Assembly (NCBI GenBank): GCA_007132225.1
Contig: SLPB01000060.1
Location: 1-44,738 of the forward strand
DNA: 44,738 nucleotides
Reading direction: 5' to 3'
Origin: Bacteroidales bacterium
Lineage (GTDB): Bacteria > Bacteroidota > Bacteroidia > Bacteroidales > PUMT01
Position numbers and translations under genes: made by a program. The notes under the pieces are model-generated. The model saw only the letters and a program-made list of their open reading frames with translations. It was not told the DNA's origin and searched no databases. The number at the start of each line of letters is the position of its first letter. Position 1 is the stretch's first letter. Below, in pieces: positions 1 through 18,688 of this stretch.

Positions 1-1097
1 CCCTGAACACACTTAACCGTACACGACAGGCAATTTTCACAGGCATCACCTTTAATATTTAGAGAGTCCATTGTATCGCGGGCAAGTGTAAGATCTTTAT
101 ATCCGTATGCATACATATAGGAACGCATGATGTCGGGAACAGGAACATTTTTTGGACATTGATCCAGGCATTGTTCGCATCCCAGACAAAACAATCCGGT
201 GTCGGCCTGATCAAACCTAAGATCACTTATCTCAGCGGGTGTAAGGTTAATATCCCTGTTAATCTCAAAATTATCTTCAAGCTCCTGGAACGATGCAACT
301 CCCGGTATTGTGGTGTGGATATTTGGATTCTGAAGGGCATACTTAAGTGCTGCCCTCAGGTTAATTGGATCCTGTCTCTCCTTGTCCCAGTAAACACCGG
401 CCATAGTTTTCATTGCCATTATACCGATATCTGCAGCGGCAGCTTCTGCAATGGCCTGTTTCATATCCTGCAAATTTTCCATTTTAAAGTTATATGATGT
501 ACATACAACATCATACACATTGCTTTCTGCCACTGCCCTGATTACTTCCGCTTCATTGGCATGGGTAGACACCCCCAGAAATTTGGCCCTGCCCTGCTCC
601 TTGATTTTTGAGAATGCGTCCAGGCGTGCTTTATCCAGTGCATGCTCGCGTGATCCGGATGAATGAAGCATGAGTATATCAACATATTCAAGTTGCAGTC
701 GTTTCAAACTGGTGTCAAACTGTTCGAAGATTTGACTTTCTGTATTTCCGCGGACCTTGGTTGCCAGATAAAAAGAGTCCCTTTGGCGGTTTTTTAGCAG
801 GTTTCCCAGCATCTCTTCGTTCCTGCCATTATTATATCCATGTGCAGTATCAATAAGGGTCATCCCCATATCAAGGGCCAGGTTAACAAACCGTGGATTG
901 TCAGAGCGAACAAAACCAAGGTTGACCAGTGGAACCTTCAGTCCGGTTCTTCCCAGTGTCCGGTGCATTATACCGCCCTTTCCGGCAGTTGCAAGGCTGG
1001 TGAGCGGAGCAGCCTGTAATGAACTGCCACCTGCAATGAAAGTGCCTGCCGCAGCTGACAACTTCAGAAAGTTTCTGCGGTTTAGTGATTTATGCAT
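1..1097 (-). CDS. Tat-signal aldo/keto reductase with C-terminal 4Fe-4S domain (partial, C-terminus off window)
   Basis: This gene is missing from the ORF track because it runs off the left edge. Reading the minus strand from the ATG at 1097 gives about 365 residues, starting MHKSLNRRNFLK, a twin-arginine signal followed by an Ala/Gly-rich hydrophobic stretch. The AKR barrel shows the tetrad residues in LIDTAHGY (Asp, Tyr), LATKV (Lys) and MLHSS (His). A ferredoxin-like CLGCEQCLDQCP follows, then a second Cys cluster (CENCLSC...KC) cut by the edge. It is a clear paralog of the gene at 2067-3254, and by comparison with that 395-aa protein roughly 30 residues are missing. The family is known as putative NAD(P)-dependent Fe-S oxidoreductases; the substrate is unknown. 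Export by Tat is inferred from the signal. Confidence 0.9.
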   Translation of the reverse strand, partial: MHKSLNRRNFLKLSAAAGTFIAGGSSLQAAPLTSLATAGKGGIMHRTLGRTGLKVPLVNLGFVRSDNPRFVNLALDMGMTLIDTAHGYNNGRNEEMLGNLLKNRQRDSFYLATKVRGNTESQIFEQFDTSLKRLQLEYVDILMLHSSGSREHALDKARLDAFSKIKEQGRAKFLGVSTHANEAEVIRAVAESNVYDVVCTSYNFKMENLQDMKQAIAEAAAADIGIMAMKTMAGVYWDKERQDPINLRAALKYALQNPNIHTTIPGVASFQELEDNFEINRDINLTPAEISDLRFDQADTGLFCLGCEQCLDQCPKNVPVPDIMRSYMYAYGYKDLTLARDTMDSLNIKGDACENCLSCTVKCVQ

Positions 1098-1156
1098 GGA
1101 ATTTGTTTATAAATTAAGGTTACGTTATTTAAAGGAAAAGAGGAGTAATTTTGATA

Positions 1157-2044
1157 TTACCTTCCTGAAAAAATATCCAGGTATTTCTCCTGCAACTCCT
1201 TGTCATCTAGGTTATAATATCCATAAAGTACATTGTCCTTCCATACAATACCCACTTCTCCGTTCCACCTGTCATCAATCCGGTGAATACCCTCCCGGAG
1301 AACTTCAGTATCCTGTCCGCTGAATTCGTAATAATCTTTCAGGATTTTTTCACTTTCCTTTCTTTTATCATTCTTTATAATAAAGAGATTAAACCTTTCC
1401 CCATCAATATCATAGGTGGAAACAAAGGCTCCTGAAAGAAAAGGGTGTCCAAGGAAATTGGTATTGATGAATTCCTCCGAATGCTCAACTTTCCCCTCTT
1501 CAGGCAGTGAATTAACTATAGCCGGAAATTCAGGGTTGGGGTCAAGGGTGTCTGAAATATGCCTTCCTATTTTTTTCATCGCTTCAGCAGTTTCTTCCGA
1601 CCTGTCATGACTCCTTATCTTGACATAGGAATCGGCAACAAAAAAGTTGAGCGCTCCCGGAACTGTATAACCCTGTACTCCGACATCGGCAAGCTGCGGG
1701 GTGCCCGGCCGTTCCTGGGAATATACCCCGAAGGCGCGAACAGGTCCGCCCTGCCTGTAGATCTCCACAACTAAGTAGATGTCATTATCCTCCGAGTTGA
1801 CGTATTCTCCCCAGTAAAGCTCGCGGAAATCATATGCATAAAACAGATCTGCTGCCCCGTTGATAATGTCCCAAAGAGTTTCGGGTGAATAAACATCTAT
1901 CTCTGCCGGTTTTTCCCAACCATCAATAACTGGAAAGAGATGATCATGGCTTGCAAAGATTTTACTGTTAACACCGCAGATTCCCGGCAGGATCAGTACC
2001 AGGAACATGAAAACCCTGTTTTTGATAACTAACTTCTTCATCAT
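1157..2044 (-). CDS. Secreted DUF6599-like protein
   Basis: This 295-aa protein has an N-terminal hydrophobic signal (about residues 9-30, no convincing lipobox) and a soluble body. The stretch SPETLWDIINGAADLFYAYD resembles the conserved INGAA-x-LY core I associate with DUF6599; that family name is from memory and should be checked. No catalytic motif is recognisable. It lies between two paralogous Tat-signal AKR-ferredoxin genes on the same strand, 22 bp after the first and about 60 bp before the second, so co-transcription is likely. A role as periplasmic partner of these redox proteins is inference. The start at MMKK is supported by the signal peptide beginning directly there. Confidence 0.75.
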   Translation of the reverse strand: MMKKLVIKNRVFMFLVLILPGICGVNSKIFASHDHLFPVIDGWEKPAEIDVYSPETLWDIINGAADLFYAYDFRELYWGEYVNSEDNDIYLVVEIYRQGGPVRAFGVYSQERPGTPQLADVGVQGYTVPGALNFFVADSYVKIRSHDRSEETAEAMKKIGRHISDTLDPNPEFPAIVNSLPEEGKVEHSEEFINTNFLGHPFLSGAFVSTYDIDGERFNLFIIKNDKRKESEKILKDYYEFSGQDTEVLREGIHRIDDRWNGEVGIVWKDNVLYGYYNLDDKELQEKYLDIFSGR

Positions 2045-2066
2045 TGCCCTGTTTATATTAATATAA

Positions 2067-3254
2067 TTATGTGAGAAAATCAGATGGCACGTGACGCAGC
2101 CTGTCTATGTTTTTTATCTTTTCAGCAACATTGAATCCTTTGACGCATTTCACCTGGCATGAGCCGCAGGTTTCACATGCATCTCCGCAAATACTGAGCG
2201 AATCCATGGTTTCGCGGGCCAGTGAAAGATCTTTGTATCCGTATGCATACATGTATGAACGCATCATATCGGGTACAGGCAGGTTATGGGGGCACTGATC
2301 AATACATTCCTTGCAACCAAAACAATACAGTCCTCCCATGCTTGCTTCTTCCAGTCTGAGATCCTTTATTTCACCAGGGGTCATACTGATGTCCCGGTTA
2401 ACATCAAAATTATCTTCCAGCTCATGGAAAGCTGTAACACCCGGAATGGAGGTGTGAATGTTTTCATCCTGGAGGACATATTTGAGTGCGGCCTTTGTGT
2501 TAATAGGATCCATCCTTTCCTGATCCCAGTAAGCGCCGGCCATCGTTTTCATTGCTATGACTCCAAGGCCGGCTTCAGCGGCTTCTGCAATTGCCTGTTT
2601 TATTTCCCTGTAATTATCCATTGTAAAATTATACGCAGGACAAACTACATCATATTCATTACTTTCAATAGCGGCCCGTATAACCTCGGGCTCATTTGAA
2701 TGAGTTGTAACCCCTATAAACCTGGTTCTTCCCTGTTCACGCAGTCTGGTAAGTGCTGTAAGATAGTTCTCGTTCAGGGTTCCTTCTCTTGATGATTGGG
2801 CATGGAGATAAAGAATATCAACATATTCCAGTTGCAGTCTTTCCATGCTGATGTCAAACTGCCCGATGAAATCATCAACCGACATTTGATCTCCGCGGGG
2901 ATTAACCTTTGTAGCCAGGTAAAAAGAATCCCTCGGCCGGTCCTTCAACAGCTTTCCAAGCATCTCTTCGTTCCTGCCATTCTGATAACCATGAGCTGTA
3001 TCGAGCAGGGTCATCCCGCCGTCAAGGGCCATGGTAACAATTCTTGGATTATCGACACGCATAACACCAAGATTTACAACGGGCACTTTCATGCCGGTCT
3101 TTCCGAGTGTGCGGTGTATTATGTCATTGCTGGCAGCAGCAGAAAGATTATTTGCTGAAGCGGCATTTACATTGCTGCCTCCGGCCAGGAATCCTCCGGC
3201 AGCACCGGCAGCTGATAATTTAATAAAGTTTCTGCGGTTTAATGATTTTTGCAT
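2067..3254 (-). CDS. Tat-signal aldo/keto reductase with C-terminal 4Fe-4S ferredoxin domain
   Basis: This 395-aa protein starts MQKSLNRRNFIKLSAAG, a twin-arginine signal with an Ala/Gly-rich h-region (about 1-32). The AKR barrel (about 45-300) carries the expected tetrad: Asp and Tyr in LLDTAHGY, Lys in LATKVN and His in LYLHAQ. The C-terminal part has CFGCKECIDQCP and a second cluster CGDACETCGSCQVKC, consistent with Fe-S binding. It is the first gene of a three-gene minus-strand group with the DUF6599-like gene and a second AKR paralog. The family normally reduces carbonyls with NAD(P)H; how an exported copy would obtain reductant is not shown by the sequence. Substrate unknown. Confidence 0.9.
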   Translation of the reverse strand: MQKSLNRRNFIKLSAAGAAGGFLAGGSNVNAASANNLSAAASNDIIHRTLGKTGMKVPVVNLGVMRVDNPRIVTMALDGGMTLLDTAHGYQNGRNEEMLGKLLKDRPRDSFYLATKVNPRGDQMSVDDFIGQFDISMERLQLEYVDILYLHAQSSREGTLNENYLTALTRLREQGRTRFIGVTTHSNEPEVIRAAIESNEYDVVCPAYNFTMDNYREIKQAIAEAAEAGLGVIAMKTMAGAYWDQERMDPINTKAALKYVLQDENIHTSIPGVTAFHELEDNFDVNRDISMTPGEIKDLRLEEASMGGLYCFGCKECIDQCPHNLPVPDMMRSYMYAYGYKDLSLARETMDSLSICGDACETCGSCQVKCVKGFNVAEKIKNIDRLRHVPSDFLT

Positions 3255-3515: not shown

Positions 3516-3523
3516 TATATTTG
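3516..3523 (+). promoter_or_regulatory. Possible Bacteroidota -7 element (TATATTTG)
   Basis: TATATTTG matches the TAnnTTTG -7 consensus of Bacteroidota promoters. I see no good -33 TTTG at the usual spacing, so support is partial. The element overlaps the first copy of the 19-bp repeat by four bases, which would place that repeat at the transcription start and the second copy in the leader. Confidence 0.4.
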
Positions 3524-3560
3524 TCCTGTCGGGGACTTGGTTTTGTCCTGTCGGGGACTT
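3520..3560. repeat. Two-copy 19-bp tandem direct repeat
   Basis: TTTGTCCTGTCGGGGACTT occurs exactly at 3520-3538 and 3542-3560 with a 3-nt spacer (period 22). Each copy holds a small inverted repeat, GTCC-N6-GGAC. It is more GC-rich than its surroundings and lies 35-75 bp upstream of the aminotransferase start. I saw no third copy elsewhere in the window by eye. Confidence 0.9.
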
Positions 3561-3573
3561 ATTAATCTATTTC

Positions 3574-3597
3574 TATATTATATTATATTATATTATG
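3574..3597 (+). repeat. TATTA pentanucleotide microsatellite in the 5' leader
   Basis: Between four and five tandem copies of a TATTA-type 5-bp unit run directly into the ATG at 3595 of the aminotransferase. Such a tract could vary in length by slippage and change leader length; this is inference. Confidence 0.8.
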
Positions 3598-4920
3598 CAA
3601 AACACACCTGTAAACAGCGAGATTGTAAAGCAAAAGATAAGGGAAAGCAACCTTGCTTCACTGGGAGCTGCCAATATAAGAAACATCGTACGACTTGTAA
3701 ATGAATTAGAAGAGGCAACCGGCGAGAAATTTATCAGGATGGAAATGGGTGTGCCCGGCCTGGATACCTGTTCCGCAGGTATTGATGCAGAAACAGAAGC
3801 ATTAAACAGGGGGGTAGCTTCCACTTATCCCATGATTGAGGGGGTTGATATTCTTAAAAATGAAACAGCAAGATTTTTAAAATTATTCATGAACATAGAT
3901 GTTAGTCCGCATGGATGTATTCCCACCGTTGGATCCCTGCAGGCCAGCATTGCTGCATTTATGACTGCAGGCAGATCAGTAAGTAATAAGGACACAACAC
4001 TGCTGATTGATCCCGGATTTCCTGTACATAAACAACAACTGAATGTTCTTGGACTGAAATATGAATATTTTGATGTATATCAATTCAGGGGGGAAAAACT
4101 CCGGGATAAGCTTGAATCATATCTTGCTGCGGGTAATATAAGCTGCATATTATATTCCAATCCAAACAATCCTTCCTGGATTTGCTTTTCAGAGAAGGAG
4201 CTTCAGATAATTGGAGAATTAGCCGATAAACATGATGTAATAATACTGGAGGACCTGGCATATTTCTGTATGGATTTCAGGAAAGATCTCTCAGTACCGG
4301 GTGAGCCACCTTACCAGTCCACCGTGGCTAATTATACATCAAACTATATTATACTCTTTTCAAGTTCAAAGGTATTTAGTTATGCCGGCCAGAGAACGGG
4401 GATGCTTATCATATCAGATGCACTCTACAAAAGATCCTATCCTGATTTGAAACGCTTTTTTTCATCCGACCAGCTGGGATATGCTATCGTATACGGCTCT
4501 CTTTATTCATTATCGGCCGGTACAAATCACTCTTCACAATATGGACTTGCTGCCATGCTTAAGTCCGCAAGCGACGGTGAATTTAATTTTGTTAAAGAAG
4601 TAAGGGAATATGGTGAAAGGGCAGCCATAATGAAAAGAATGTTTCTGGAAAACGGATTCATCCTGGTTTATGATAAGGATGAGGATTTGCCTGTTGGTGA
4701 CGGGTTTTATTTTACAATTGCATACCCGGGTTTTTCAGGTGGAGAGCTGCTGGAGAGACTGCTTTATTTTGGAATAAGTGCTATTTCTCTTGAAGTAACA
4801 GGAAGTTCAAGGACGGAAGGATTACGTGCATGTGTTTCCCAGATTGACCGGGACCAGCTTCCTGTTCTTGAGAAACGACTTAAAGGCTTTCATAAGCGAT
4901 ATGCAGAAAATTTGCCTTAG
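3595..4920 (+). CDS. PLP-dependent aminotransferase, class I/II fold
   Basis: This is a 441-aa fold-type I aminotransferase. Visible motifs are SNPNNPSW near 188-195, the acidic LEDLAYF near 219-225 that contacts the pyridine nitrogen, and SSSKVFSYAGQRTG, where Lys259 should form the Schiff base and the Arg binds phosphate. No signal peptide is present, so it is cytoplasmic. Substrate specificity cannot be read from sequence. It lies 129 bp upstream of a 2-oxoacid:ferredoxin oxidoreductase operon on the same strand, which suggests it makes 2-oxoacids from amino acids for that enzyme (inference). Its leader carries a tandem repeat and a TATTA microsatellite. Confidence 0.88.
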   Translation: MQNTPVNSEIVKQKIRESNLASLGAANIRNIVRLVNELEEATGEKFIRMEMGVPGLDTCSAGIDAETEALNRGVASTYPMIEGVDILKNETARFLKLFMNIDVSPHGCIPTVGSLQASIAAFMTAGRSVSNKDTTLLIDPGFPVHKQQLNVLGLKYEYFDVYQFRGEKLRDKLESYLAAGNISCILYSNPNNPSWICFSEKELQIIGELADKHDVIILEDLAYFCMDFRKDLSVPGEPPYQSTVANYTSNYIILFSSSKVFSYAGQRTGMLIISDALYKRSYPDLKRFFSSDQLGYAIVYGSLYSLSAGTNHSSQYGLAAMLKSASDGEFNFVKEVREYGERAAIMKRMFLENGFILVYDKDEDLPVGDGFYFTIAYPGFSGGELLERLLYFGISAISLEVTGSSRTEGLRACVSQIDRDQLPVLEKRLKGFHKRYAENLP

Positions 4921-4950
4921 CTATTTCCCGGGGGCAAATACATTTTTTTT
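4921..4950 (+). terminator. Weak possible terminator after the aminotransferase
   Basis: ATTTCCCGGGGGCAAAT forms an imperfect short hairpin followed by a T8 run. The stem has a bulge and a small loop, so the call is tentative. Confidence 0.3.
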
Positions 4951-4991
4951 GGCACCTGATAATAATCATTAAAGCAATACTTTTGATTGAT

Positions 4992-4999
4992 TATTTTTG
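4992..4999 (+). promoter_or_regulatory. Possible -7 element of the oxidoreductase operon (TATTTTTG)
   Basis: TATTTTTG fits TAnnTTTG and lies about 50 nt upstream of the ferredoxin-subunit start. No matching -33 box is seen at the expected distance. Confidence 0.35.
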
Positions 5000-5049
5000 A
5001 GAATATATTTTAAAAATGAATAAAATATAAATTTAGATACCCCTTCAAT

Positions 5050-5307
5050 ATGGCCAAATTTAAAGGATCCATTGTGGTTGACAAGGAAAAGTGTAAAGGC
5101 TGCGAGGTATGTGTTGTTGCCTGTCCGACCAACGTTATCGGACTTTCCAGGGAGGTTAACGGAAAAGGATTTCATATTGCCTTCATGGAAAATCCCGATG
5201 CCTGCACAGGTTGCGCAAATTGTGCAATAGTTTGTCCTGATGGAGTCATTACCGTCTACAAAAAGGAACGATTGTCGTCAGAAAAAAAGATAAAGGAGCA
5301 AAAATAA
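5050..5307 (+). CDS. 2-oxoacid:ferredoxin oxidoreductase, ferredoxin-type (delta) subunit
   Basis: This 85-aa protein has two 4Fe-4S motifs: CKGCEVCVVACP near residues 15-26 and CTGCANCAIVCP near 57-68. It is the size of VorD/KorD-type delta subunits, which pass electrons from the thiamine enzyme to external ferredoxin. It is first in the order delta-alpha-beta-gamma, an arrangement known for these complexes, although 157 bp separate it from the alpha gene. Whether the complex prefers branched-chain 2-oxoacids (Vor) or 2-oxoglutarate (Kor) is not decided by the sequence. It is cytoplasmic. Confidence 0.9.
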   Translation: MAKFKGSIVVDKEKCKGCEVCVVACPTNVIGLSREVNGKGFHIAFMENPDACTGCANCAIVCPDGVITVYKKERLSSEKKIKEQK

Positions 5308-5318
5308 ATAACAATCAT

Positions 5319-5367
5319 TTCAGGACCTGTTATACCATATTTTGCAATTATTGTTTTTAGTCCTGAA
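5319..5367. repeat. 8-bp inverted repeat between delta and alpha genes
   Basis: TTCAGGAC (5319-5326) and GTCCTGAA (5360-5367) are exact reverse complements with a 33-nt spacer inside the 157-bp gap of the operon. It could be an attenuator, processing hairpin or operator; no T-run follows. Confidence 0.5.
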
Positions 5368-5464
5368 TTTAACACATCTGAAATCCGACAAGCTTTTTGC
5401 ACAGATGAACATGATTATTCACAGGGTTTCATCTGGCAAACAATCATAAATCTCAATAGCTGAA

Positions 5465-6544
5465 ATGAAGGAACTGAAACTAATGAAAGGAAATGAGGCA
5501 ATTGCCGAAGCTGCTATACGTGCAGGAGCTGATGGCTACTTTGGATATCCGATCACTCCCCAATCGGAGGTGCTGGAGTATCTGATGGCAGAAAAACCTC
5601 ATGAACGTACCGGTATGATTGTATTACAGGCTGAAAGTGAAATAGCTGCCATAAACATGGTATACGGTGGTGCAGCATGCGGCCGAAAGGTGTTCACCTC
5701 CTCCTCAAGCCCCGGCATCAGTCTTAAACAGGAAGGCCTTTCATATATAGCCGGTGCCGAGCTTCCCTGCCTTGTAGTTAATGTAGTCAGGGGGGGACCC
5801 GGACTGGGAACAATTCAACCCGCACAATCCGATTATTTTCAGGCAACAAAAGGAGGCGGACATGGAGATTATCGTCTCATTGTTCTTGCACCCGCTTCGG
5901 TACAGGAAATGGCCGATTTTGTCGAGCTTGGTTTTGACCTTGCTTTTAAATACAGGAACCCTGCAATGATCCTCACTGACGGTGCCCTGGGCCAGATGAT
6001 GGAGAAAGTGTGGCTGAGAGAACATAAGCCCAGGATGACCGAATTTCCCGCCTGGGCCACTACAGGCAAGACCCCTGATAGAGAAAGAAACATAATAACA
6101 TCCCTTGATCTTGATTCTGCCAGGCAGGAGGAATTCAATCTTAAGCTTCAGGCCAAATATAATAAGATGGGGGAGGAGGAAGTAAGGTATGAGATGACTG
6201 ATTGTGATGATGCTGAATTTTTGCTTGTTGCCTATGGTACAAGTGCCAGAATTTGTCAAAAAGCAGTTCAGCTGGCAAGGAAAAAGGGAATAAGGGCAGG
6301 ATTGCTCAGACCTATAACTCTTTTCCCTTTCCCAAAGAAACCTTTGAAAGAGATGGCATCCCGGCTTAAGGGCATTCTTTCAGTTGAGATGAGTACCGGA
6401 CAGATGGTAGAAGATGTTCTACTTGCTGTTAATGGTCAGGTCAGGGTTGAGCATTATGGAAGGATGGGCGGGATAATACCTTCTCCTGATGAGATAGCAG
6501 ATGTTTTGGAACATAAATTTACAGGAGGTAAAAATTATGAATGA
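5465..6544 (+). CDS. 2-oxoacid:ferredoxin oxidoreductase alpha subunit (VorB/KorA-like)
   Basis: This 359-aa protein begins MKELKLMKGNEAIAEAAIRA and carries the GYPITPQSEV motif of the pyrimidine-binding domain of pyruvate/2-oxoacid ferredoxin oxidoreductase alpha chains. The C-terminal transketolase-like domain contains LLRPITLFPFP and EMSTGQMVEDV. Length matches the family annotated as 3-methyl-2-oxobutanoate dehydrogenase subunit VorB. With beta and gamma it oxidatively decarboxylates 2-oxoacids to acyl-CoA while reducing ferredoxin. The gene overlaps the start of the beta gene by 8 nt, so translation is probably coupled. Annotations in this family often confuse Vor and Kor, so I leave the symbol empty. 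Confidence 0.92.
   Translation: MKELKLMKGNEAIAEAAIRAGADGYFGYPITPQSEVLEYLMAEKPHERTGMIVLQAESEIAAINMVYGGAACGRKVFTSSSSPGISLKQEGLSYIAGAELPCLVVNVVRGGPGLGTIQPAQSDYFQATKGGGHGDYRLIVLAPASVQEMADFVELGFDLAFKYRNPAMILTDGALGQMMEKVWLREHKPRMTEFPAWATTGKTPDRERNIITSLDLDSARQEEFNLKLQAKYNKMGEEEVRYEMTDCDDAEFLLVAYGTSARICQKAVQLARKKGIRAGLLRPITLFPFPKKPLKEMASRLKGILSVEMSTGQMVEDVLLAVNGQVRVEHYGRMGGIIPSPDEIADVLEHKFTGGKNYE
6522..6527 (+). promoter_or_regulatory. Shine-Dalgarno AGGAGG for the beta subunit
   Basis: A full AGGAGG lies 9 nt before the ATG at 6537, inside the end of the alpha gene. It decides the beta start; strong SD sites are unusual in this phylum. Confidence 0.65.
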
Positions 6545-7331
6545 TAATTTAAGTAATGCAGATATTGTTAAGTGCGAAAATCTGGTGTATAAGAGATCAC
6601 CGGTAATGACCGATAATGTTATGCATTATTGTCCGGGGTGCGGCCATGGGACTGCACACCAGATTATCGCTGAAGTTATTGAGGAAATGGATATTCAGGC
6701 CGAAACCATTGGTATTACTCCCGTGGGATGCGCAGTGCTCATGTACAATTACCTGGATATTGATATGCAGGAAGCTGCACATGGCAGGGCACCGGCACTT
6801 GCGACTGCAGTCAAGAGGCTGATGCCTGAAAAGTATGTCTTTACATACCAGGGAGACGGTGACCTTGCTGCCATAGGAACTGCCGAAACAATACATGCCT
6901 GTAACAGGGGAGAGAATATTGCCATATTCTTTATCAATAACGGGATATATGGAATGACCGGGGGACAGATGGCGCCTACCACCCTGCCCAATATGAGATC
7001 ATCGACATCCCCTTACGGGAGAGATGTGGAGATGATGGGAAATCCCCTTAGAATAACTGAACTGGTAGCTCAATTACCGGGCACGTATTATGTTACCCGT
7101 CAGGCTGTGCATACCCCGACTTACGTGAGAAAAACAAAAAAGGCGGTCCGCAGGGCTTTTGAGAATCAAAAACTCAAAAAAGGCCTTTCACTAGTGGAAA
7201 TAGTTTCCAACTGTAATTCAGGATGGAAAATGTCACCCGTCCAGGCCAACAAATGGATGGTTGATAATATGTTTCCCTTTTATCCTCCCGGCGATATTAA
7301 ACTGGAAGGTAAAATGCTATCCAAAGATTAA
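6537..7331 (+). CDS. 2-oxoacid:ferredoxin oxidoreductase beta subunit, thiamine pyrophosphate-binding
   Basis: I chose the ATG at 6537 (MNDNLSNADIV) over the ORF-track start at 6501. An AGGAGG lies about 10 nt upstream, and this start gives a short 8-nt overlap with alpha. The protein is about 264 aa. HYCPGCGHG supplies Cys residues for the cluster and GDGDLAAIGTAE...INNGIYGMTGG is the ThDP/Mg motif (GDG...NN). It works with the alpha chain to decarboxylate 2-oxoacids. NCNSGW near the C-terminus adds a further Cys typical of the family. It is cytoplasmic and sits between alpha and gamma. Confidence 0.92.
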   Translation: MNDNLSNADIVKCENLVYKRSPVMTDNVMHYCPGCGHGTAHQIIAEVIEEMDIQAETIGITPVGCAVLMYNYLDIDMQEAAHGRAPALATAVKRLMPEKYVFTYQGDGDLAAIGTAETIHACNRGENIAIFFINNGIYGMTGGQMAPTTLPNMRSSTSPYGRDVEMMGNPLRITELVAQLPGTYYVTRQAVHTPTYVRKTKKAVRRAFENQKLKKGLSLVEIVSNCNSGWKMSPVQANKWMVDNMFPFYPPGDIKLEGKMLSKD

Positions 7332-7342
7332 AACTTAATATT

Positions 7343-7894
7343 ATGACTGAAGAAATCATCATTGCTGGTTTTGGCGGACAAGGTGTTCTTTCCATGGGCA
7401 AGATACTTGCATATTCCGGAATAATGCAGGATCAGGAGGTGAGCTGGATGCCTTCATACGGACCGGAGATGAGGGGAGGGACAGCCAATGTTACCGTAAT
7501 TCTGAGTGATGGACCCATCAGCTCACCAATAATCAATAAGTTTGATACCGCAATAATTCTCAACCAACAATCTCTCGACAAGTTCGAGAGTTTCGTTAAA
7601 CCTGGCGGGGTGCTCATTTACGATGGCAATGGTATAACACGTCATCCCGAACGCACTGATATTTCTGTTTACAGGGTGGATGCTGCCGAGGAAGCTTCAA
7701 AAATGGAGTCAGCAAAAATATTTAACATGATAGTTCTGGGCGGGTATCTTAAGGTAAAACCCGTAGTCAAACTTGATAATGTTGTCAGGGGACTCGAGAA
7801 GTCTCTGCCCAGTAGGCATCATGCCCTTATACCCTTAAACGAAAAAGCAATAAAGAGGGGGATGGAAATTATAAGGCAGATGAACAGTATATGA
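7343..7894 (+). CDS. 2-oxoacid:acceptor oxidoreductase gamma subunit
   Basis: This 183-aa protein starts MTEEIIIAGFGGQGVLSMGK, the Gly-rich start typical of gamma subunits of pyruvate/2-oxoacid:ferredoxin oxidoreductases. It continues with SYGPEMRGGTANVTVILSD, another family hallmark. It follows the beta gene after 11 bp and completes the delta-alpha-beta-gamma set. The next gene, nadD, is convergent, so the operon ends here. The family role is assembly or CoA-side function in the complex. Confidence 0.92.
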   Translation: MTEEIIIAGFGGQGVLSMGKILAYSGIMQDQEVSWMPSYGPEMRGGTANVTVILSDGPISSPIINKFDTAIILNQQSLDKFESFVKPGGVLIYDGNGITRHPERTDISVYRVDAAEEASKMESAKIFNMIVLGGYLKVKPVVKLDNVVRGLEKSLPSRHHALIPLNEKAIKRGMEIIRQMNSI

Positions 7895-14920: not shown

Positions 14921-16264
14921 TCAGGCGGGAGCTGAACCAGGAACGGGTATTTTGGTATCAACATCCACAGGACCCATTTTGTATTCTTCAGGACCCAGCC
15001 TTAAATTTGAAGTCATCATCTCCTCCCAGGTGACTTCCTTGCCGGAGTAGGCTGATTCACTTCCCATTATTCCAGTTAGAGTTGAGGAAGCAAGATCATT
15101 AGCCTGATTGATAGGGTTGTTGGTTCGTATTGCATTTACCAGGTTGATCATTTCCTGGTCGAAAGATGATATCGGCAACCTTCCGGTCGGCTGTCCATGT
15201 TCATCCAGAGGATATTCGTACTCCCAGATAAGATTATCTTCATAGTCAAATATTTTATTCTGGCAGTTTGTATATCCCTTGGTTCCGTATATGATCTGCC
15301 CGGATTTGTTGTCGCAACCGTCAATATGGCGATTCATGCACTGGTAGTTCTTTCCGTCGTCAAAAGAATATTCCACACTGAAAAAATCATACATGTTGCC
15401 CGTATGAGTGCCGTGCCTGCCACCCATGCCAAGAGCTCTGGAAGGATATTTTTCAAAGAACCAGTTAATAATATCAAACTGATGAATTGCAACATCAAGG
15501 AGGTTGCTGCCGGCAATCCAGTTCCAGGCCATCCAGTTTCTCAACATAGCCTCCATATCACTCCATCCTTCCTGACGGTTGACGTGCCAGATTCTTCCTC
15601 CCATCCTGTAAGCATTTCCGGATACAAGATCTCCTATGGCGCCATTTTTAATCATACCAAAGGTTGTTATGTAATCGCGCTGATGTCTGTATATGGTGCC
15701 GGAGACTACTGACAGGCCGGCTGATTCGGCCATCCTTCCTGAAGCCATGACGGATCTGACACCTACGGGATCAACAGCAGCTGGCTTTTCAAGGAAAACA
15801 TGCTTTCTTGCCTGTACCGCTGCCTCGAAATGTGCAGGGCGAAAATGTTGCGGTGTTGCATGCAGAATTACATCCACATCTGAATCAATAACACGCTTGT
15901 ATGCATCAAATCCAGTAAAACAATTTTTATCAGGTATCTCAATTCCGTGACTGTCCATTAAGGATTTCCGGCAGCTATTAATTCTGTGCTCAAAAACATC
16001 TCCAAGTGCTGTTACCTGAAGGTTCGGGCCTGCATTTAGGAAATTGATGGCAGCTCCTGTTCCCCTGCCTCCGCACCCTATAAGTCCGGCTTTTAAAGGA
16101 GGTCCGTCCGGAGCAATATCGAGGAAAACCGGTGTTTCATGCTTAATTCTTCGTGAATCGCAGGAGGAAAGTGCATATCCTGCTCCTACTGCACCCAGTA
16201 ATCCAATAGCAGCCGCATCTCCTAAAAATTCACGTCTGCTTTTTAACTTTGCTTTTTTACTCAT
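14921..16264 (-). CDS. Tat-signal Gfo/Idh/MocA family oxidoreductase
   Basis: This 447-aa protein starts with a twin-arginine signal (KSRREFLGDAAAIGLLGAVG). The Rossmann region is AGLIGCGGRGTGAAINFL near residues 59-76, and the EKPAAVD motif typical of the family follows. The C-terminal domain is a Gfo-like beta sheet. These NAD(P)-dependent enzymes oxidise or reduce sugars; secreted members carry a bound cofactor. The sugar is unknown. It faces the secreted TIM-barrel isomerase across a shared terminator and is followed upstream by a 521-bp intergenic region. Confidence 0.92.
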   Translation of the reverse strand: MSKKAKLKSRREFLGDAAAIGLLGAVGAGYALSSCDSRRIKHETPVFLDIAPDGPPLKAGLIGCGGRGTGAAINFLNAGPNLQVTALGDVFEHRINSCRKSLMDSHGIEIPDKNCFTGFDAYKRVIDSDVDVILHATPQHFRPAHFEAAVQARKHVFLEKPAAVDPVGVRSVMASGRMAESAGLSVVSGTIYRHQRDYITTFGMIKNGAIGDLVSGNAYRMGGRIWHVNRQEGWSDMEAMLRNWMAWNWIAGSNLLDVAIHQFDIINWFFEKYPSRALGMGGRHGTHTGNMYDFFSVEYSFDDGKNYQCMNRHIDGCDNKSGQIIYGTKGYTNCQNKIFDYEDNLIWEYEYPLDEHGQPTGRLPISSFDQEMINLVNAIRTNNPINQANDLASSTLTGIMGSESAYSGKEVTWEEMMTSNLRLGPEEYKMGPVDVDTKIPVPGSAPA

Positions 16265-16785
16265 AATATATGTTATAATTTGATGAAATTAATATGGTAT
16301 TTGTTTTTCTTAACTTTTATTCACCAGTATTTCTTGTGATTGGTACCTGCAGCACCCATCTTGTTATGTTTCGGTTCGTATAGCCCCTTTGATTATACTT
16401 ATTCTTTTCGGAGATATTGAGGGAACCATTAATAATGCGCCGAATTTACCAAATAATTAATTTGTCTGCAAAAAAATATTGGAGTTATTATATTAGGGTT
16501 GCACTGTGTTCATATCTTTTAACAGGCTTTTTCTGTATATTGGGTTAAAATCAGCATTTTTTGAAATTTATTATATTTATGTATCGGACTATAACGTAAA
16601 TGCCTTTGCTTTTCATTGGTAATAGTCTTTTACAATCAATAAACGTTAATTTAATTGTTTTATTTTCTTAATTCAGATACCGGTTTTGAACAAAGATTGG
16701 GGCCTGCTGTTTGATTAATATTGTAGAATTTATGCCTGATAAAGGTTTTTAGGGGAAAATATCAAATATAAATACAATTTTTCTA
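16265..16785. other. 521-bp divergent intergenic region, no gene recognised
   Basis: It separates the Gfo/Idh/MocA gene (minus) and idi (plus). It is AT-rich with many stops in all frames. I found no exact TAnnTTTG element, tRNA, riboswitch or repeat. It must contain promoters for both genes, and its length leaves room for a small RNA that I cannot identify. Confidence 0.5.
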
Positions 16786-17334
16786 ATGACCCTTGATGAA
16801 GTAATTTTGGTCGATACCAACGACTGCCAAACCGGCACAATGGAAAAAATGGAAGCTCACGAAAAGGGACTTTTACACCGGGCGTTTTCTGTTTTTATAC
16901 TCAATAACTCAGGGAGGATTCTTTTGCAGAGGCGGGCTTCCGGAAAATATCATTCTCCCGGATTATGGACCAATACATGCTGCAGTCACCCGCGCCCGGG
17001 AGAACCTGTTGAAATTGCTGCTGTAAGGCGTTTACAGGAGGAGATGGGTATTAAATGTTCGCTGAAGAAGTTATTTACTTTTATTTACAGGGCTGAGTTT
17101 GACAATGGATTAACCGAACATGAACTTGATCATGTTTTTGCAGGGATATCTGACAGCATCCCCGTTCTCAACACCGAAGAGGCAGATGATTATGAGTATG
17201 TTGATCCCGATTACCTTTCAAAAGATATTGAAAAATTTCCCGGCAAATACACAATATGGTTCAGGATAGCATACCCCGGGGTAAAGCAAATACTCAGGGA
17301 GTATTCGGATAAGTCTCAGGGTGCCCCGAACTGA
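16786..17334 (+). CDS. idi: Isopentenyl-diphosphate delta-isomerase, type 1
   Basis: This 182-aa Nudix-fold enzyme interconverts IPP and DMAPP for isoprenoid synthesis. The catalytic Cys is in WTNTCCSHPRPGE near residues 64-76, the Nudix-like helix is AVRRLQEEMGI, and the catalytic Glu region is LTEHELDHVF. Length matches bacterial type 1 Idi. It is a lone plus-strand gene convergent with tilS, 28 bp apart, and cytoplasmic. Confidence 0.96.
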   Translation: MTLDEVILVDTNDCQTGTMEKMEAHEKGLLHRAFSVFILNNSGRILLQRRASGKYHSPGLWTNTCCSHPRPGEPVEIAAVRRLQEEMGIKCSLKKLFTFIYRAEFDNGLTEHELDHVFAGISDSIPVLNTEEADDYEYVDPDYLSKDIEKFPGKYTIWFRIAYPGVKQILREYSDKSQGAPN

Positions 17335-17362
17335 AATGACAAGCGTTCTCTTTTTTTAAATG

Positions 17363-18688
17363 TTAGTGAAATATCTCAACCATTAGAATATCTTTTGTTC
17401 TCTCAGTAATTTTGAAGCGATCGTCAATACGGTGGCCCGTTATCCAGACAATCTTGTTTCCTGATGTAAGCAGCCAGATTTTCTCCTTTTCTATAAGCGA
17501 AAATTTGTTGTCTATAAAAAAGTCACTTAGCTTTTTAAGTCCATTCATTCCCAGTGGTTGAAAATAATCTCCTTTTTGCCATTTTCTCAATAAAAGGGGG
17601 AAATGAAGCACATTGAGATCCAGGCATGCAATTTCAGGATCTGCAGGTATCCTGAAACCACTGAACATCTCCATTTTGGAGATTTTAAGTTTCAGGGGCT
17701 CATGCAGTTCAGTGGTCTCTTCTTCAATATAATACCGGCTCACGGCCTCATGCTGTAATGGTCTGATAATTAGGGACTCCCTGTCTTTAACAAGCTTATG
17801 GGTGGAAGAATAGAACTGCTTGCCGGAAGGGCCTTTTAAAGAAATAATTATATCAGGTATCATTTCCCTGGGGAAATTCCAGTTCTTCAGAAACTCATAA
17901 AGATAGGAGGGAAGGGGGTTCAGTGAAAGAAGTGATTTAATATTCAACCTGAATTCATTGTCGGTTTCAGTACATAATTCATTAAACTTATTCTTAACTG
18001 CTTCATTAAAAACAATTTCAACATCTTTCAATCTGCAAGCTGTACTGTACAGGTTTTTTACAAATGAATCTGATATTTTTTCAAATTCCGGGATGATCCT
18101 GTGTCTTATTCTGTTACGTTTATACTTTATGTCAATGTTGCTGGAATCTTCCCGGAAGGTCACCTTGTGTTTTATTGCATGCCTGGTGATATCAATTCTC
18201 TCTGCAAATAAAAGTGGGCGTATTATATTTCCTCTCTTTTCCTTTATACCTGTCAGTCCCCTGATACCAGTTCCCCTTATAATATTAATAAGCATAGTTT
18301 CGGCGAGATCATTTTTATTATGCGCTATTGCAACAGATAGATATCCGTTTTCACTTATCAGCTGGTTGAACCAGGTGTACCTCAATTCACGCGCTGCCAT
18401 TTGCAGGGATATTCCCCGTTCTTGTGAATAATTGACAGTATCAAACTTTTTGAAATGCAGATGAATGTTGTTTTTTATGCATTCCTGAGCAACAAAATAC
18501 TGGTCCTGATCCGATTCTTCTCCGCGAAGGTTAAAATTGCAATGGGCAGCTGCAAATGGATAATCTGTTTCAAGAAACAGATTAAACATTACCATTGAGT
18601 CCACTCCTCCGCTTATGCCAAGCAGAATCTTGCCGGGTCTGTCAATAAGGTCCCCGGCTTTAACGAAATCAGAAAAACGTTTATACAT
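17363..18688 (-). CDS. tilS: tRNA(Ile)-lysidine synthase
   Basis: This 441-aa enzyme adds lysine to C34 of the tRNA-Ile CAU anticodon, changing it to read AUA. The PP-loop LLGISGGVDSMVMF lies near residues 22-35. Further family motifs are HCNFNLRGEESD, IAHNKNDLAETMLIN and the FREDSSN region. The C-terminal third matches the TilS substrate-binding domains. The gene stands alone on the minus strand, with an 86-bp gap to the HD protein on its other side. Confidence 0.95.
   Translation of the reverse strand: MYKRFSDFVKAGDLIDRPGKILLGISGGVDSMVMFNLFLETDYPFAAAHCNFNLRGEESDQDQYFVAQECIKNNIHLHFKKFDTVNYSQERGISLQMAARELRYTWFNQLISENGYLSVAIAHNKNDLAETMLINIIRGTGIRGLTGIKEKRGNIIRPLLFAERIDITRHAIKHKVTFREDSSNIDIKYKRNRIRHRIIPEFEKISDSFVKNLYSTACRLKDVEIVFNEAVKNKFNELCTETDNEFRLNIKSLLSLNPLPSYLYEFLKNWNFPREMIPDIIISLKGPSGKQFYSSTHKLVKDRESLIIRPLQHEAVSRYYIEEETTELHEPLKLKISKMEMFSGFRIPADPEIACLDLNVLHFPLLLRKWQKGDYFQPLGMNGLKKLSDFFIDNKFSLIEKEKIWLLTSGNKIVWITGHRIDDRFKITERTKDILMVEIFH

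Follow-up and report, generated by a model that had tools for sequence, protein, structure and literature searches.

A Tat-type aldo/keto reductase–ferredoxin and DUF6599 as a conserved gene pair in Bacteroidales and other bacteria

A minus-strand locus of two AKR-ferredoxin genes and a DUF6599 gene

The window analyzed here, a 44,738-nucleotide stretch of Bacteroidales DNA, is the entire contig C167 (SLPB01000060.1) of a 3.3 Mb assembly (GCA_007132225.1) that is 96% complete. The closest public relatives of this genome are Bacteroidales metagenome-assembled genomes labelled CSSed, which we take to denote soda-lake sediment. At the left end of the window, open reading frame calls place three genes on the minus strand, separated by gaps of 22 and 59 bases: AKR1 (2067..3254, 395 residues), a DUF6599 protein (1157..2044, 295 residues) and AKR2 (3..1097, 365 residues so far, its final residues missing at the contig end). 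Both outer genes encode predicted Tat-exported aldo/keto reductases (AKRs) with a C-terminal 2x[4Fe-4S] ferredoxin-like domain. The first-pass annotation had described this arrangement, and we confirmed its open reading frames, domains, catalytic tetrad, cysteines and twin arginines. Promoter and terminator scans gave results at chance level.

Both AKRs match Aldo_ket_red (PF00248; Pfam E values of 7e-30 and 1e-32) and retain an intact Asp-Tyr-Lys-His tetrad together with eight cluster cysteines. The tetrad of AKR1 comprises D85, Y90, K116 and H151 (92-100% conserved). In an alignment of 40 diverse homologues, R7, R8, D85, Y90, H151 and H185 are invariant and K116 nearly so. The Fe-S segment of AKR1 (2145..2324, minus strand) contains two CxxCxxCxxxC motifs at residues 311-321 and 360-370, whose cysteines (311/314/317/321 and 360/363/366/370) are all invariant in the same alignment and are kept almost without exception in 83 Tat-type AKR sequences. 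Fer4-type Pfam matches fall mostly under their gathering cut-offs, with Fer4_20 above its cut-off in AKR1. The AlphaFold2 model of AKR1 (pLDDT 84.7) has AKRs as its nearest solved folds (E 6e-16 for the match to AKR structures), such as YghZ and L-galactose dehydrogenase, the latter of which also ranks first by sequence among solved structures, and a Foldseek search against viral proteins returned generic AKR/TIM-barrel matches only.

The putative twin-arginine signal peptide of AKR1 (MQKSLNRRNFIKLSAAGAAGGFLAGG..NVNA; 3162..3254, minus strand, its end being an estimate) scores above the cut-offs of TIGR01409 and PF10518 (TAT_signal, 23.1 bits versus a Pfam cut-off of 22.7). The AKR2 signal reaches 20.9 bits, slightly under the Pfam cut-off and over that of NCBIfam TIGR01409. 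The N-terminal RR-x-F/L motif and the hydrophobic segment that define Tat substrates at the sequence level are present, the twin arginines occur in 40/40 aligned rows, and the genome encodes TatC (E 5.8e-65). The invariance of the motif across the family and the presence of TatC speak against the concern, raised in the first-pass annotation, that it might not be a functional signal. The AKR very probably acts outside the cytoplasm.

The DUF6599 protein begins with a Sec-type N-terminal hydrophobic helix and is a clear member of PF20244 (residues 42-225, E 1.3e-38, 132.9 bits versus a cut-off of 27), a family without assigned function. Its AlphaFold2 model (pLDDT 92) consists of two similar halves, each with a bb-a-bbb-a topology. 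Solved relatives were not found by sequence, and Foldseek searches of the model against solved structures gave no match below E 1e-3. The weak matches are to sensor or lipid-binding extracytoplasmic proteins, namely the PknH sensor (prob 0.99, E 0.012), TP0453, RseB, TiME and TM1622, and the fold may be of the Mog1/PsbP-like type. The family has a single histidine that is 94% conserved (H200) and no conserved cysteine, so that DUF6599 is unlikely to be a redox carrier and is more plausibly a redox-inactive partner.

Linkage of DUF6599 to two partner families

Among 75 loci anchored on the AKR, 53 carry a DUF6599 gene on the AKR strand no more than 400 bases away; several of the remainder are contig ends or contain only distant AKRs. 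The AKR gene precedes DUF6599 in most Bacteroidales and follows it in some Tannerellaceae and in Acidobacteria, adjacency being retained. The pairing recurs in Bacteroidota, Acidobacteriota and, with either an AKR or a DUF362 partner, Aminicenantes. The bacteria concerned, from three or more phyla, include gut, soil and soda-lake organisms.

To remove the bias of anchoring on the AKR, we surveyed 295 genomes of the order, counting full Tat-AKR-ferredoxins at E < 1e-120. DUF6599 was detected in 56 genomes, the Tat-AKR-ferredoxin in 23 and both in 21, so that DUF6599 accompanies 21/23 AKR genomes as against 35/272 others (Fisher p 4e-15, uncorrected for kinship). We also gathered 91 unanchored DUF6599 genes, 61 from the order and 30 from ten genomes of three phyla. 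Beside a Tat-AKR stand 14 and 7 of these, respectively, and beside a DUF362 gene (PF04015, likewise a family without assigned function) 36 and 17, plus one that falls under both headings; 11 and 6 adjoin neither. Four of the latter are AKR-type DUF6599 genes in genomes with the AKR elsewhere. With 74 of the 91 genes adjoining a Tat-AKR or DUF362, this survey rejects coincidental neighborhood, and since the linkage recurs in other genomes, the three-gene locus of the window is more than a chance arrangement. Other conserved neighbors (an aminotransferase, KorABCD, hydrolases) do not recur outside single clades.

DUF362 is therefore the second and more frequent partner of DUF6599, one that was invisible to the first-pass annotation. 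In a tree of 109 DUF6599 proteins the partner label switches only twice, which argues that DUF6599 has specialized with its partner, and both pairs (AKR-DUF6599 and DUF362-DUF6599) are present in Parabacteroides gordonii and in P. goldsteinii. The comparison of neighborhoods thus revealed a linkage conserved across phyla where its absence would have spoken against a module. Taken together, these gene arrangements identify the Tat-AKR-ferredoxin–DUF6599 pair as the predicted core unit, and the two proteins very probably function together.

The second AKR of the window is a local duplication under purifying selection. AKR1 and AKR2 are 66% identical and belong to separate clades inside one soda-lake Bacteroidales lineage (support 99/83 and 91/73), a topology that rejects a recent tandem duplication. 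AKR2 is not a decaying copy either: all eight cysteines are present before the contig ends after the eighth, the AKR2 copies from the same genus are full length (391 and 390 residues in L104 and L107), and comparison with AKR2 orthologues gives a dN of 0.21-0.23 and a saturated dS (>2). For both AKRs, protein-changing divergence is low (dN 0.12-0.23) and silent divergence saturated (dS mostly 1.8-4), which shows that both are maintained. Some relatives (three loci) carry a single AKR, and the triple is accordingly a local elaboration rather than the defining unit. The earlier proposal that retention of two paralogs around the middle gene marks a working unit holds locally, but most genomes have one AKR and one DUF6599, and the triple arose by duplication within one soda-lake lineage.

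DUF362 and a NapGH-like polyferredoxin

In Acidobacteria, five loci share the operon order polyferredoxin, DUF362, DUF6599, AKR, and a sixth shows it with split genes. In the polyferredoxin a NapH-like membrane part (Fer4_5) leads into a ferredoxin part resembling NapG, and 4/9 of the polyferredoxins examined have an internal RR motif between the two parts, before the last transmembrane segment. Dual insertion of such NapH-NapG fusions by Sec and Tat has been demonstrated experimentally by Tooke et al. (PMC5449189), NapH and NapG form a quinol dehydrogenase (PMC5449189), and a NapGH-like pair has been proposed to link menaquinone to the PceA dehalogenase (PMC4585668).

DUF362 occurs in 23/23 AKR genomes of the order versus 133/272 others. 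In Bacteroidales the AKR is not adjacent to the polyferredoxin, which instead follows DUF362 as a pair at a separate site (8/9 sampled DUF362 loci of AKR-bearing genomes); the link between AKR and polyferredoxin in this order is drawn from the Acidobacterial operon and from co-occurrence. The genome of the window carries a DUF362-DUF6599 pair on contig C103 and a Tat-DUF362 gene that runs off the end of contig C177. Upstream of the latter are the same genes as at the DUF362-polyferredoxin locus in two genomes of the genus. The polyferredoxin itself was not found when the assembly was searched; its expected site coincides with the contig break, which can explain its absence.

A proposed periplasmic redox unit and its electron source

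In classical AKRs the nicotinamide is held by an Asn, a Gln and a stacking Tyr. At these positions the Tat-AKR family has mostly Thr for the Asn, Leu or Cys for the Gln and Met for the Tyr, with the IPG motif and the AKR barrel conserved. We dropped these changes as proof of an electron source other than NAD(P): L-galactose dehydrogenase departs similarly from the classical pocket yet binds NAD, and cytoplasmic AKR-ferredoxins have the same Met, so the substitutions do not prove a loss of nucleotide binding.

The notion of a periplasmic redox module, put forward in the first-pass annotation, is well supported by genomic evidence, as the linkage is conserved across phyla, the twin arginines are invariant and TatC is present. 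The unusual electron source that it also suggested gains indirect support from the NapH-NapG-like polyferredoxin of the Acidobacterial operon; the route, the substrate and the direction are what we infer. Our preferred reading, advanced tentatively, is a periplasmic Fe-S redox unit with NapGH-like exchange with menaquinone, the AKR as terminal oxidoreductase and DUF6599 as a redox-inactive partner. The AKR would fold and acquire its clusters in the cytoplasm before export by Tat, and would then work in the periplasm alongside the Sec-exported, two-domain DUF6599 protein, which, devoid of redox ligands, may serve it as a dedicated partner for docking, assembly or substrate presentation and may bind it physically. 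Through the NapH-NapG-like membrane polyferredoxin, with or via the Tat-exported DUF362 protein, electrons would pass between the two [4Fe-4S] clusters of the AKR and the menaquinone pool, making oxidoreduction at the barrel independent of the cytoplasmic NAD(P)H pool. Reduction of a carbonyl or sugar-like substrate would be the favored direction. In the soda-lake lineage, duplication of the AKR around DUF6599 may have yielded two enzyme variants with one common partner.

An electron exchange between the AKR and the quinone pool by way of the NapGH-like polyferredoxin is conceivable, if far from assured. More doubtful is the broader proposal of an AKR family that works outside the cytoplasm on menaquinol electrons, delivered by the polyferredoxin and the AKR's own two [4Fe-4S] clusters in place of NAD(P)H, with DUF6599 as a partner of two unrelated Tat-exported families, AKR-ferredoxin and DUF362. 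The main gap in the proposed mechanism is how hydride-type AKR chemistry would be coupled to [4Fe-4S] clusters, which carry electrons one at a time, in an enzyme that lacks a flavin domain.

Two rival explanations are serious. In the first, which we consider rather unlikely, the AKR is a redox-neutral or self-recycling periplasmic oxidoreductase exported with tightly bound NAD(P), like the glucose-fructose oxidoreductase of Zymomonas, oxidizing one substrate while reducing another, the clusters being structural or protective. Tat-exported nucleotide oxidoreductases are known, namely glucose-fructose oxidoreductase and the Caulobacter AAOR (PMC4628093). The barrel, the tetrad and the IPG motif are conserved, and the nearest solved AKR relatives bind NAD or NADP. 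The prevailing replacement of the classical nicotinamide Asn and Gln, positions mapped from established AKR knowledge, argues against this reading, and eight invariant cysteines for two clusters and an operon with a polyferredoxin would be unexpected if no electrons entered or left the enzyme.

In the second, unlikely in our judgement, the AKR is an oxidative periplasmic dehydrogenase of a sugar or alcohol whose clusters relay the electrons to the quinone pool of the membrane. Besides the match to L-galactose dehydrogenase as the best sequence hit among solved structures, four Bacteroidales loci have a secreted beta-lactamase-fold hydrolase (UlaG/lactonase type) upstream of the AKR that would suit a lactone product; however, this hydrolase is confined to one small clade and its fold is very broad, and the polyferredoxin resembles the quinol-oxidizing NapGH (PMC5449189), which runs in the reverse direction. 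Finally, inherited synteny without function, or a twin-arginine motif that is not a working signal, could explain adjacency within the lineage of the window alone and would fit the slightly sub-threshold Pfam score of AKR2, but is largely refuted and highly improbable given adjacency in three phyla with altered gene order, the motif in every aligned row and the TatC gene.

The periplasmic Fe-S unit that we favor can be set against several known systems, and its assignment to quinol-linked periplasmic Fe-S systems is tentative. As in NapGH and the dual Sec-Tat polyferredoxins, a putative quinone-side membrane polyferredoxin with a periplasmic Fe-S domain is encoded, in the Acidobacterial operons and the Bacteroidales DUF362 pairs, with Tat-exported Fe-S partners; in contrast to those systems, a molybdenum or corrinoid terminal reductase is lacking, and the proteins exported are DUF362, DUF6599 and an aldo/keto reductase. 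The TIM barrel and the tetrad are shared with the AKR superfamily (L-galactose dehydrogenase 7smi/7svq, IolS/AKR11A, YghZ/AKR14A1), from which the Tat-type family differs by its Tat signal, its C-terminal 2x[4Fe-4S] domain, its altered nicotinamide-site residues and its presumably periplasmic location. Cytoplasmic AKR-ferredoxins (COG1453-type) have the same barrel, eight-cysteine C-terminal domain and Met at the stacking-Tyr position, but lack a Tat signal, keep Gln at the carboxamide position in 5/9 cases and, in the loci read, show no DUF6599 linkage. Glucose-fructose oxidoreductase and AAOR (Gfo/Idh/MocA family) resemble the AKR as Tat-exported, nucleotide-dependent periplasmic oxidoreductases (PMC4628093), whereas their fold is unrelated and they have neither Fe-S clusters nor a DUF6599 partner.

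Our literature searches found no paper on exported AKRs or on DUF6599; the domains are individually known, and their combination and the partner rule of DUF6599 are, as far as we searched, undescribed. The linkage places DUF6599 in a functional context for the first time and joins it, DUF362 and the Tat-exported AKR-ferredoxin in one envelope redox system, present in cultured gut bacteria (P. gordonii and P. goldsteinii) and in soil Acidobacteria. The pairing points to an uncharacterized cell-envelope redox system, probably tied to the respiratory chain. If the electrons do derive from quinones, a branch of the AKR superfamily would use a different electron source, and a new branch of periplasmic respiration or biosynthesis could be tested directly in genetically tractable anaerobes.

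Divergent operon and hairpin repeat beside AKR1

The gene for the Tat-exported aldo/keto reductase AKR1 adjoins a divergent operon (window positions 3595-7894) encoding an aminotransferase, a small ferredoxin and subunits of a 2-oxoacid:ferredoxin oxidoreductase. Among the AKR loci compared, this adjacency is retained only in the soda-lake Bacteroidales lineage. The gap separating the divergent AKR1 and aminotransferase genes contains a 22-base unit, repeated in tandem and carrying a perfect hairpin (TTGTCCTGTCGGGGACTT in two copies, positions 3521-3560), of which a search of the genome returned no further exact copies.

Genomic contexts of DUF6599

The second DUF6599 gene of the genome lies on another contig, C103, directly 3' of the gene for a Tat-exported DUF362 protein (together spanning about 16210-18270, corresponding to L080:7214-9271). 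Our survey of DUF6599 loci indicates that such a DUF362-DUF6599 pair is the commonest context in the order. At locus L112, two tandem DUF6599 genes (5009-6727 and 6733-7638) lie downstream of a DUF362 gene, the first encoding a 572-residue and apparently internally extended version. The Acidobacterial relatives L180-L183, which feature an extra membrane segment at the C-terminus, adjoin neither an AKR nor a DUF362 gene and constitute a third, unexplained DUF6599 type.

Other AKR-ferredoxins and AKR-DUF6599 loci

L162 and L163 form a separate, distant AKR-ferredoxin group in which a lipobox-like Cys comes after the RR signal (MSEKNKLYRRDFLKVLGGAVAATSTLAGC, for example); the export of this group is apparently of independent origin. 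A soda-lake contig labelled Balneolales (L009) also harbors an AKR-DUF6599 pair, which groups within the Bacteroidales clade in our tree, reflecting either gene transfer or a mis-binned contig. In one Bacteroidales clade (L014, L015, L024 and L064), a gene for a Lactamase_B_3 protein, a secreted hydrolase with a beta-lactamase fold, is found immediately 5' of the AKR-DUF6599 pair and is a possible clue to the substrate.
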